Shown: positions 53,246-58,742 of the stretch, piece by piece
Layout: each line of letters opens with the position of its first letter
Position numbering within the stretch: the stretch's first letter is position 1
NCBI RefSeq assembly: GCF_000712975.1
Contig: NZ_JHQL01000001.1
Location: forward strand, 910,625 to 974,624
Direction: 5' to 3'
Source: Vreelandella neptunia
GTDB lineage: Bacteria; Pseudomonadota; Gammaproteobacteria; Pseudomonadales; Halomonadaceae
DNA length: 64,000 bases
Program-made: the position numbers and the translations under genes
The notes under the pieces: model-generated
What the model was told of the DNA's origin: nothing
What the model saw: the letters and a program-made list of their open reading frames with translations, nothing else
Databases searched by the model: none

Positions 53246-55162
<1,917 letters not shown>

Positions 55163-55546: not shown

Positions 55547-56152
55547 ATGCGTTTTTCCCCGCTTGTTGAGCAACTGATGGACGCTTTTCGCGTATTGCCA
55601 GGCGTTGGGCCGAAAACGGCTCAACGTATGGCTATGCATTTACTAGAGCGCGAACGCCCAGGTGGACAGCGGTTGGCGGCGGTAATTCAGCAGGCCATTG
55701 AAGAAGTAGGTTATTGTCAGCGCTGCCGTACATTGACCGAAGCGGATATCTGCGTGCTGTGCGAAAGTAGCCGTCGTGATGATTCACTCTTGTGCGTTGT
55801 GGAGTCACCTGCTGATCAACTTGCTATTGAGGAGGCGGGCGGCTTTCATGGTCGTTATTTTGTGTTACATGGCCATCTCTCTCCTCTGGATGGTATTGGC
55901 CCTGATGCCATCGGCTTAGATTTATTGGAAAGCCTCATCGCAGAGGGCAACATCCGTGAAGTAGTGCTTGCCACCAATCCCACTGTGGAAGGCGAGGCGA
56001 CAGCACACTTTATTGCTGCCCAACTTTCTCATTACGGTGTCTCTTTCTCTCGGCTCGCCTATGGTGTGCCCATGGGGGGGGAACTTGAGTATGTCGACGG
56101 TGGTACGCTAAGCCGCGCCTTTAATGGTCGCCAGCCTTTTGCCAGCGATTGA
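55547..56152 (+). CDS. recR: Recombination protein RecR
   Basis: A 201-residue protein that loads RecA on gaps with RecF and RecO. The N-terminal helix-hairpin-helix is [17 protein letters not shown]. The zinc finger is [16 protein letters not shown]. The Toprim domain includes [42 protein letters not shown]. The start lies 3 bp after ybaB. The stop overlaps the proposed rnd start as TTGA. Confidence 0.97.
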
Positions 56153-57339
56153 CCCTTACAAAAAACGCAAACGCTTATGCGCTTGTGCCAACCCGGAAGT
56201 GTGCTTTGTCCTCTTTAGCCCCCCCGTTGTATCAATGGATTGATAGTGCTGACGCCTTAGATGCTGCTTGCGAGCAAGTCGCCGGTGCCAGTGTCATTGC
56301 CCTCGACACTGAATTTTTCCGCGAAAATACATTTTTTCCGGTGCCAGCGCTTGTTCAATTCACCACGGGTGATACGGCTTATTTAGTCGATCCGTTGAGC
56401 ACGCCCTGTACTGCTGCCTTTCGTGACTTGCTGCAAAATAGCGCCATTAAACTACTGCACGCGTGCAGTGAAGATTTAGAGGTTTTCCAGCATTGGGCAG
56501 GCGTATTACCAACACCACTTATCGATACACAGGTTGCGCAGGCTTTTTTAGGTGAAACCCCCGGCATGGGCTATCAAAAACTGGTAGAGCATTGGATGGG
56601 AGAAACGCTGCCTAAAGAAGAAACGCGTTCCAACTGGTTAGAACGTCCCTTGACGCCCTCTCAGTGTGAATACGCGGCGTTAGATGTTATTTATTTGCTG
56701 AAAGTGTGGAGATTACAAGCTGAAAAGCTTGAGCAACTAGGTCGACGTGAATGGCTTGACGATGAGTGTGCCAGCCTGATTGAGCAGGCGGGACGCAGTG
56801 TTGAAAGCGACGGCCAGTGGTATACGCGCCAGCGGCAGTTATGGCGTCTTGATCCCCATCAGCTTGAGGCCTACCGTTTAATGACCATTTGGCGGGAAGG
56901 GGAAACCCGGCGCCGTGATTTACCGCGTAACTGGTTAGTCAGCGATAAACTATTGTTTGCGGTAGCGGAAAAAATGCCCAAAAACCGCTATGAGTTGGCC
57001 GAGATTGAGGGAGTCAAACCGCCGCTGATTAAAAAAGAGGGCGACACGTTGTTAGCGCTGGTGAAGCAGGCTCAGCACTGCCCTGAAGATAATCTGCCTG
57101 CGCGTTGGCCAGATCCAATGCATCCTGCGTTTAAGCGGCGCTTTAAAGCACTAAAAAAAGTGGTGGTTGATAAGGCGGCTGAATTGCAAATAGCGCCGGA
57201 AATGCTATTGCGGCGGCGAGATATTGAGGGGCTGGTGATGCAGCGGCTCGCTAATCAGCCGCTAACGCCTCCTGGTGGCTGGCGTCATACTTACCTAACT
57301 CAAGAAATTTATCAGGCGCTTGAGGAGTCATCGCAATGA
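56149..57339 (+). CDS. rnd: Ribonuclease D
   Basis: A 3'-5' exoribonuclease trimming tRNA precursors, up to 396 residues. DEDDy motifs: Asp/Glu in [12 protein letters not shown], Asp in [12 protein letters not shown], and Tyr/Asp in [12 protein letters not shown]. Two HRDC domains follow ([39 protein letters not shown] and a second near the C-terminus). The proposed TTG at 56149 overlaps the recR stop. A TTG at 56206, with GGAAG upstream, would remove 19 residues and is an equally good candidate. The 3' end overlaps ycgL as ATGA. Confidence 0.92.
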
Positions 57340-57629
57340 GCGAGAAACTGCTTTGTGAAATTTTAAAAAGCTCACGTAAAGACGAGATGTACCTCTATAT
57401 AGACAAGCAGAAAGGGTTGTCATCCGTACCCGAGGCGCTAATGGAAACCTTTGGTAAGCCAGTGCCGGTACTGACAATGATATTGACCGCCGACAAAAAG
57501 CTGGCTCGGGTGAACGCAGCCGATGTGATGTCCGCCATCCAAGAGCAAGGCTTTTATCTACAAATGCCGCCTGCGAAAGAAGCCTATTTGCTGGATGTTC
57601 ACCGTGCGCAAGCGGCTAACCGCGAATGA
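57336..57629 (+). CDS. ycgL: YcgL domain protein
   Basis: A 97-residue protein of the YcgL family, recognised from CEILKSSRKDEMYLYIDKQKGLSSVPEALMETFGKPVPVLTMILTADKKLARVNAADVMSAIQEQGFYLQMPP. It is a small alpha/beta protein; function is not established. It overlaps rnd by 4 bp, and its own stop overlaps the first mini-cistron ATG at 57626. Confidence 0.92.
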   Translation: MSEKLLCEILKSSRKDEMYLYIDKQKGLSSVPEALMETFGKPVPVLTMILTADKKLARVNAADVMSAIQEQGFYLQMPPAKEAYLLDVHRAQAANRE

Positions 57630-57671
57630 ATGTTTTGCTATGAACGTTTTGTTATGAACCTTTTGTTATGA
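57626..57671 (+). other. Chain of three five-codon mini-cistrons linked by ATGA overlaps
   Basis: Three short frames sit between ycgL and acpH. They are 57626-57643 (MNVLL), 57640-57657 (MNVLL) and 57654-57671 (MNLLL). Each overlaps the next by ATGA. The first overlaps the ycgL stop and the last overlaps the acpH start. They arise from a 14-bp tandem repeat (57628-57669). Ribosomes leaving ycgL could be relayed to acpH by repeated termination-reinitiation. Whether the peptides matter is unknown. Confidence 0.8.
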
Positions 57672-58303
57672 ACTTTCTTGCCCATGCTTGGCTTGCCCAT
57701 TCTGGAAGTGATGAGTTCCTTTACGGAAATCTGATTGCTGACGGTGTGAAGGGGCAAGACCTCACGGCTTGGTCGCCAGAGGTTGCTAGTGGCATACGTC
57801 ATCATCGCCGCGTGGATGCTTGGATTGACCGGCACCCAAACGTTTTAAAGGCAAAGCGGCGCGCGCCACGCGCTCAGCGGCGTTATGTTGGTATTGCGTT
57901 AGATATCGTGTGGGATCATTTTCTTGCTCGTCAACAGGCGGGAGAGCAGCAGCATCAGTTAATTGAGCGCTGCTATCAGCTGTTACAGGCTTGGCCTGCG
58001 CCGCAACGCCTGTCTACCATGATGCCACTCATGATTAAGCATGACTGGTTGCACCGATACGCTGATTTTGACTTTACCTGTCGTGCAGTAGCAGGCGTTG
58101 GCCAACGGCTATCGGGGCCTAACCGTTTAGCAGAGTTAGTGCCTTGGCTTTACGAAGACTACCCATGCTTAGCAGCCGACTTCTCAGTGTTATGGCAAGA
58201 GTGCCGTGCCACGCTAACCAGCAGTGGTGGTACTACGGAGGGTGGAGATTATTTAAAGATGGTGAAAGTAAAGGGAATCAATGATGGTGGCGGCTATGCG
58301 TGA
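57668..58303 (+). CDS. acpH: Acyl carrier protein phosphodiesterase family protein
   Basis: A 211-residue protein of the AcpH (YajB) family, HD-like, which removes the 4'-phosphopantetheine from holo-ACP in E. coli. Motifs: MNFLAHAWLAHSGSDEFLYGNLIADGVKG, GIRHHRRVDAWIDRHP and GIALDIVWDHFLAR, with His and Asp residues for metal binding. There is no Shine-Dalgarno before the ATG; the start is fed by the ATGA chain from ycgL. The C-terminal ~20 residues appear extended. It overlaps ycgN by 8 bp. Confidence 0.88.
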   Translation: MNFLAHAWLAHSGSDEFLYGNLIADGVKGQDLTAWSPEVASGIRHHRRVDAWIDRHPNVLKAKRRAPRAQRRYVGIALDIVWDHFLARQQAGEQQHQLIERCYQLLQAWPAPQRLSTMMPLMIKHDWLHRYADFDFTCRAVAGVGQRLSGPNRLAELVPWLYEDYPCLAADFSVLWQECRATLTSSGGTTEGGDYLKMVKVKGINDGGGYA

Positions 58304-58742
58304 GCGCTTCTGGGAAAGATACTCGCTAGAAGAATTAACGCCCCAAGAGTGGGAGGCGTTATGCGATGGCTGTGGCCAATGTTGCTTGTTGAAGCTCCAC
58401 GACGATGAAACGCAAGAATTGGCAGTGCTTAACGTTGCCTGTCGGTTACTGGATATTCACAGCTGTCAGTGCAGTGACTATGAAAATCGCTTCGATAGCG
58501 TACCCGACTGTACGCAACTGACGCCTGAACTTGTCAAAGAGTTTACTTGGCTGCCGCACACATGTGGCTATCGGCGTGTTGCTGAAGGGCGCAAACTAGC
58601 AGGATGGCATCCATTACTTAGTAATGATGCGGAGCGCGTTCACAGAAAAGGCGTTAGCGTAAGAAGCTTTGCGGTTTCCCAGGACGATGTACCTGAGCGC
58701 CAACTAGAAGATCATATTATCGCAGTATTGCCGATGACTTAA
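58296..58742 (+). CDS. ycgN: YcgN family Cys-cluster protein (UPF0260)
   Basis: A 148-residue protein with a Cys-rich cluster of the UPF0260 family. Motifs: FWERYSLEELTPQEWEALCDGCGQCCLLKLHDDET, then ACRLLDIHSCQCSDYENRFDSVPDCTQLT and WLPHTCGYRRVAEGRKLAGWHPLLS. The conserved Cys residues probably bind a metal or Fe-S cluster; function is unknown. I start at ATG 58296; a start at 58281 would add five residues. ycgL and ycgN are also close neighbours in E. coli. Confidence 0.9.
   Translation: MRERFWERYSLEELTPQEWEALCDGCGQCCLLKLHDDETQELAVLNVACRLLDIHSCQCSDYENRFDSVPDCTQLTPELVKEFTWLPHTCGYRRVAEGRKLAGWHPLLSNDAERVHRKGVSVRSFAVSQDDVPERQLEDHIIAVLPMT

Follow-up and report, generated by a model that had tools for sequence, protein, structure and literature searches.

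A 14-nt ladder of ATGA-overlapping five-codon frames between ycgL and acpH in Vreelandella neptunia, a putative translational relay with counterparts at other operon junctions

Between ycgL and acpH of Vreelandella neptunia, the 38 nt from the stop of the first gene to the start of the second are built of 14-nt repeats and spanned by three five-codon frames. Here, we describe the anatomy of this ladder, the conservation of its phase, the variation of its copy number among species and its recurrence at other junctions, which goes beyond the single site of an earlier sequence-only reading. The ladder is probably a translational relay from ycgL to acpH, born by slippage and kept by selection on coupled acpH expression, as judged from comparison of related genomes.

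Results

The ladder lies in a same-strand run of recR, rnd, ycgL, acpH and a CxxCxxCC-domain protein gene (Table 1), within a window (the whole stretch of DNA analysed) of 64,000 nt. Coordinates and translation agree exactly with the sequence-only reading, which had described three ATGA-overlapping five-codon frames running from the ycgL stop to the acpH start: ATGA lies at 57626, 57640, 57654 and 57668, the ycgL TGA (57627-57629) is inside the first of these, and stop and start overlap by 4 nt at every step. Its arithmetic, that a period of 14 is what keeps an 18-nt frame with a 4-nt overlap, is right as a subtraction (18 minus 4) but too narrow, as any unit of length 2 mod 3 without an early stop serves. 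Tandem Repeats Finder lists the repeat with 91% matches; its output for the 64-kb window has 23 rows. The ladder is more than chance expectation, an unbroken overlap chain forming in only 0.95% of 2000 length-preserving shuffles of the 38-nt spacer. A 20-nt pattern of the unit (at most 3 mismatches) matches three places inside the ycgL-acpH array itself and nowhere else in the genome, bar one lone 3-mismatch site without ATGA; the other period-14 ATGA arrays of this genome differ from the ladder in sequence.

Table 1. Features of the ycgL-acpH region of the window
Feature	Coordinates	Strand	Remarks
recR (presumed name)	55547..56152	+	Upstream member of same-strand run; from ORF list
rnd (ribonuclease D)	56149..57339	+	DNA_pol_A_exo1 from residue 28, HRDC
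ycgL	57336..57629	+	PF05166; ATGA overlap with rnd stop
Mini-frame 1, MNVLL*	57626..57643	+	Shares ATGA with ycgL stop
14-nt tandem repeat, 3.4 copies	57626..57673	+	Last partial copy is the acpH start
Mini-frame 2, MNVLL*	57640..57657	+	Translation of window sequence
Mini-frame 3, MNLLL*	57654..57671	+	Its TGA within acpH ATGA
acpH (acyl carrier protein phosphodiesterase family)	57668..58303	+	PF04336 from residue 1; without Shine-Dalgarno
CxxCxxCC-domain protein	58281..58742	+	PF03692; 23-nt overlap with acpH end

Upstream, the stop of the gene that we take to be recR overlaps rnd as TTGA, if the first TTG is the (putative) rnd start. The acpH start is firm because the Pfam ACP_PD match begins at residue 1, and a longer acpH was rejected, its upstream frame being shut by TGA at 57641; the protein shares 89-93% identity with those of V. 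alkaliphila, V. andesensis and V. venusta. Elsewhere in the window, a perfect 6-nt repeat (54649-54707, about 10 copies) codes for an EP repeat within an ORF that is presumably dnaX-like.

Loci in relatives were located through acpH homology, independently of the repeat. acpH was matched in 65 of 82 genomes of Vreelandella, a genus formerly called Halomonas (17 had no match), one split match (L064) and 46 loci without a ycgL match were left out, and merging of identical junctions reduced 99 to 63. These 63 distinct junctions comprise 18 direct ATGA/GTGA overlaps, 28 gaps of 6-12 nt, 14 junctions bridged by mini-frames and 3 unbridged ones, two of which come from poor assemblies (G031 and G074; 86% and 74% completeness) with a ycgL frame that ends early, while the third, L012, has an out-of-phase spacer of 30 nt; all other unbridged gaps are of at most 12 nt. 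In a tree of 61 rows, L012 groups with the 14 relays in a single clade of 15 (support 100/99), adjoined by a clade of six genomes with direct ATGA overlap.

The comparison of related genomes proposed in the sequence-only reading shows that the ATGA phase is kept despite diverged units, and that copy number varies. Eight genomes carry 14-nt units, with two in L006, three in L001 and L002 (both genomes of the window's species, identical in count), four in L007, and three plus a 9-nt in-frame piece in L003, L004, L005 and L008. A single frame bridges ycgL GTGA to acpH ATGA over 35 nt in L010 and L011, and further one-frame bridges measure 29 nt in L015, 14 nt in L013 and L014 and 11 nt in L009; these six arise in 59-87% of length-preserving shuffles and are individually unremarkable. 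The chain in L007 is matched by 41% of shuffles and that in L006 by 6%, the test being strong for spacers of 38 and 47 nt (0.4-1%) and weak for the others because the shuffles preserve length.

Column conservation was assessed in the three units next to acpH of the eight ladder genomes, with units treated as orthologous by position and changes placed on the tree. All 26 changes fall on the 30 remaining sites and none on the 12 ATGA sites (P = 1.6e-4 if rates were equal; 0.002 allowing any four adjacent columns). The remaining columns change at 0.87 per site, versus 0.85 at ycgL third codon positions, and the ladder looks selectively maintained because all of the change lies outside ATGA and runs near the silent-site rate. 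Since the ATGA columns are unchanged and the others drift, the start and stop of each mini-frame are kept and the peptide is not, and the peptides vary among relatives (MNVLL, MSVLP, MSFLP, MNALR and others).

In the window, the sequence upstream of acpH pairs with the anti-Shine-Dalgarno at +0.4 kcal/mol, against medians of -5.25 for 42 window ORFs of at least 200 aa and -2.1 for 500 random 17-mers, so the absence of a Shine-Dalgarno from acpH, also remarked from sequence alone, stands. Pairing is weaker than the long-ORF median in 61 of the 63 junctions and reaches it only in L012 (-8.6 kcal/mol, the strongest of 63) and the relay L015 (-5.4). The pattern named beforehand as evidence that would count against the relay, a relative whose spacer is ordinary and carries a Shine-Dalgarno, turns up once, in L012; among the 28 short-gap relatives the best pairing is -5.2 (L038), so that acpH there does not depend on a clear Shine-Dalgarno. 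As the sole sound unbridged ycgL-acpH spacer, L012 carries a strong Shine-Dalgarno-like stretch, as if substituting for coupling.

Comparable ladders exist at further junctions. Runs of four ATGA at 14-nt spacing are present in 50 of 275 family genomes and in 21 of 398 genomes sampled across the phylum (3 of the 21 are family members already counted, V. neptunia included), and many of these runs open into a gene. By Pfam names and computed chains, ladders stand between an ABC transporter gene (taken as msbA by its place) and LpxK in three species, PhoH and YbeY, PilM and PilN (two species), a polyketide-cyclase-like and a VTT protein, two ABC permeases, aldolase II and a HAD hydrolase, and polyprenyl synthetase and DXS; in L141, a ladder of unrelated units precedes the same gene, acpH, behind a DsrC-like gene. 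Outside the family, L293, L295, L302, L307 and L311 connect long open frames. The chains at these other junctions have a largest gap of 3 nt over spacers of 24-58 nt, partly with unlike units (L302, L311), and early stops interrupt the units of L302, although the gene can still be reached there by another path through the sequence whose gaps never exceed 2 nt. Units are unrelated in sequence between junctions but share architecture and phase.

Among 81 genomes scored at pilM-pilN, with the pilN start allowed to shift by up to 4 codons from the aligned start, there are 63 direct overlaps, 3 gaps of 12 nt, 11 relays and 4 others. Eight relays are one-step (one in the poor genome G074), two are two-step and one is four-step. 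In three of the others (L353, L361, L366) the strict chain of overlaps is gone, and they remain crossable if gaps of up to 3, 13 and 4 nt are allowed, residual gaps that 17, 67 and 40% of shuffles match, respectively; the fourth, L365 (poor genome G031), was left out of gap scoring. Of 27 pilN units, 18 begin with ATGA and 5 with GTGA, in which both start and stop survive; the remaining 4 (ATAA, GTAA, ATGT, ATGC) are broken. In direct-overlap genomes the pilM tail holds two ATGAG motifs 14 nt apart (L352), which suggests that the pilM-pilN ladders arose by slippage between short direct repeats.

At msbA-lpxK, units were found in 7 of 36 loci inspected (23 of 30 loci read first, then 7 minus-strand loci and 6 more by eye; in 17 of the first 23 the start was not placed or no unit was evident). 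There is one unit in L326 and L341, a 17-nt plus a 14-nt unit in L322, two in L325 and three in L321, L323 and L324; V. neptunia itself has a plain ATGA overlap (L436).

Several further arrays were recorded. In L195, L200 and L202, ladders precede genes without a clear same-strand upstream gene and are perhaps 5' leaders; the gene that follows encodes an HI0933-like flavoprotein in L195 and a LysR regulator in L200, with L202 similar by eye. The 14-nt array of L101 and L197 satisfies the ATGA pattern in either strand and stands ahead of an ORF of 501 codons or more that looks flavoprotein-like by eye. Period-11 ATGA chains with unlike units and a very short final frame occur in four species (L254, L256, L257, L258; three nearly identical). 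In V. neptunia, C2:176220-176293 (L068-L071) is a period-14 ATGA array with TAG inside its units and no long ORF after it, and G037, a genome of the same species, has slightly different unit sequences there.

These genomes are rich in tandem repeats as a class, and across the family as a whole ATGA arrays are no more frequent than reversed ones: at period 14, ATGA arrays occur in 50 genomes and arrays of the reversed motif, AGTA, in 51. The existence of an array is therefore ordinary, and what stands out is position and conservation. In a set of 72 period-14 arrays (minus the window's arrays and the species-mate's acpH array, with the L004, L005 and L008 acpH arrays added by hand), 22 end at an ORF of at least 150 aa, several of them representing one junction in different related species. 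Every one of the 22 is intact, versus 42 of the 50 elsewhere (Fisher P 0.096; 0.042 without heptamer arrays). An open ladder thus often comes free, and 10 of these 50 arrays follow an open frame of at least 100 codons yet precede no long ORF.

Control-period tallies cover only arrays whose loci were read. Arrays end at an ORF of at least 150 aa in 20 of 71 cases for period 14, 2 of 26 for period 13 and 1 of 16 for period 11, and within the genus in 0 of 7 for period 17 and 1 of 31 for period 12 (in frame). Period-15 arrays are unable to form a ladder; in-frame ones reach such an ORF in 7 of 31 rows among the matches listed, mostly within longer open frames, so such a tally does not set period 14 apart. 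As null controls, periods 13 and 15 are imperfect, because the former couples by unit skipping and the latter is tolerated as a protein repeat.

Discussion

The interpretation offered from sequence alone, a translational ladder whose repeat number could tune acpH output, is supported in part. In the relay that we favor, a ribosome ending ycgL at TGA would re-initiate on the overlapping ATG, read five codons, stop at the next ATGA and repeat this over three mini-frames, to be handed at last to acpH, whose start lacks a Shine-Dalgarno. In reporter assays (PMC10666635), a separation of 38 nt, exactly as far as ycgL and acpH stand apart here, reduced re-initiation by 80-90% in two E. coli gene pairs and eliminated it in a third, a penalty that a ladder of overlaps would sidestep. 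The most likely origin of the ladder would be slipped-strand duplication at a junction where the two genes already shared ATGA; since 14 nt is 2 mod 3 and brings in no early stop, each such duplication would keep the stop-start chain, so termination-reinitiation would still reach the downstream gene, and selection on coupled acpH expression, a presumed benefit, would retain the ATGA of each unit while the remainder drifts. Against the relay, every step should lose ribosomes.

Neutral slippage, in which the array grew from short direct repeats 14 nt apart, its phase is meaningless and acpH is translated by direct initiation without a Shine-Dalgarno, is unlikely. It accounts well for the equal frequency of reversed-motif arrays, the ease with which open units arise (42 of 50), the 10 of 50 arrays that stand behind long open frames with no long ORF following and the TAG-containing units of C2:176220-176293, but it does not lead one to expect the invariant ATGA columns of the acpH clade, the near-gapless chains at different junctions, partly of unlike units, or a Shine-Dalgarno-like stretch at the single sound unbridged junction. 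Since ATGA arrays are not enriched, some lead to no gene and period 15 also reaches long ORFs, the ladder seems to begin by accident and later to be retained where it carries ribosomes. Apparently, ladders are recurrent at other operon junctions, with selection apparent at acpH.

An adaptive copy-number rheostat, in which each re-initiation loses a fixed share of ribosomes and repeat number sets the acpH:ycgL ratio, is quite improbable. Unit number does vary among close relatives (2, 3, 4), intact steps number 0, 1, 2 and 4 at pilM-pilN and 0-3 at msbA-lpxK, and repeat length was correlated with fpg1 expression in M. tuberculosis, with no translational mechanism in the part of that report used here (PMC2734929), but such variation among species is also expected without selection, and L001 and L002, both of the window's species, have three units alike. 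That the repeat is an RNA structure or a protein-binding site regulating acpH is very improbable, for although its U-rich unit might conceivably bind a protein, folding at 57600-57700 is no stronger than in shuffles (z -0.96) and the non-ATGA sequence changes at about the silent-site rate between relatives.

Comparison with known systems draws on excerpts of the cited papers. The ladder is like ordinary ATGA/TGATG termination-reinitiation coupling in that stop and start share ATGA and a short distance is needed (PMC10666635, PMC12548453), and differs from an ordinary coupled junction in its four successive couplings, via frames that encode no known protein. In M. tuberculosis uPPE2-PPE2, the AUGA closing a short frame is also the start of PPE2, to which that frame delivers ribosomes (PMC12713380); as described in the excerpt, that is one step under a riboswitch, whereas the present ladder is multi-step between two operon genes. 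A 2025 review covers short frames that deliver ribosomes, as well as MIRUs coupled at -4 nt (PMC12548453). MIRUs, in the portions consulted, are apparently mobile units of 40-100 nt at 41 places in one genome (PMC12548453, PMC4213456, PMC2734929), and those of senX3-regX3 measure 77 and 53 nt (PMC4213456), published lengths that are both 2 mod 3, like 14. The ladder resembles them as thus described, with copy-variable units in an operon and an inner ORF coupled at -4 nt through ATGA, but its unit is only 14 nt, short of their 40-100 nt, and has no second locus in its own genome, whereas homologous MIRU copies are scattered over theirs. It differs from a leader peptide or uORF relay in sitting between two same-strand genes; L195, L200 and L202 may be of that kind in relatives. 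Bicistronic design cassettes are engineered, single-step and usually carry a Shine-Dalgarno inside the first frame. They are alike, in the excerpt, in that a short upstream frame drives the coupled gene (PMC12548453).

The sequence-only reading had not seen such a ladder described. In the open-licence literature, with most subscription journals outside that scope, no paper on a 14-nt multi-step ladder was recognisable by title or abstract opening. The multi-step ladder is less of a novelty than that reading supposed, single-step ATGA relays and MIRUs having already been described.

Re-initiation is usually studied at a single junction, and the natural step series found here (pilM-pilN 0, 1, 2, 4; msbA-lpxK 0-3; ycgL-acpH 0-4) makes per-step efficiency measurable and tests whether ribosomes that have terminated require an overlap or are able to scan. 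More doubtfully, multi-step ladders might be a recurrent, selectable junction element, in which slippage adds or removes mini-cistrons that keep the phase, a set fraction of ribosomes drops off at every re-initiation, and repeat number would step the protein ratio without touching promoter, Shine-Dalgarno or coding sequence. The ladder also suggests how tandem repeats may grow in a coupled operon without silencing the next gene, namely by a unit length of 2 mod 3.
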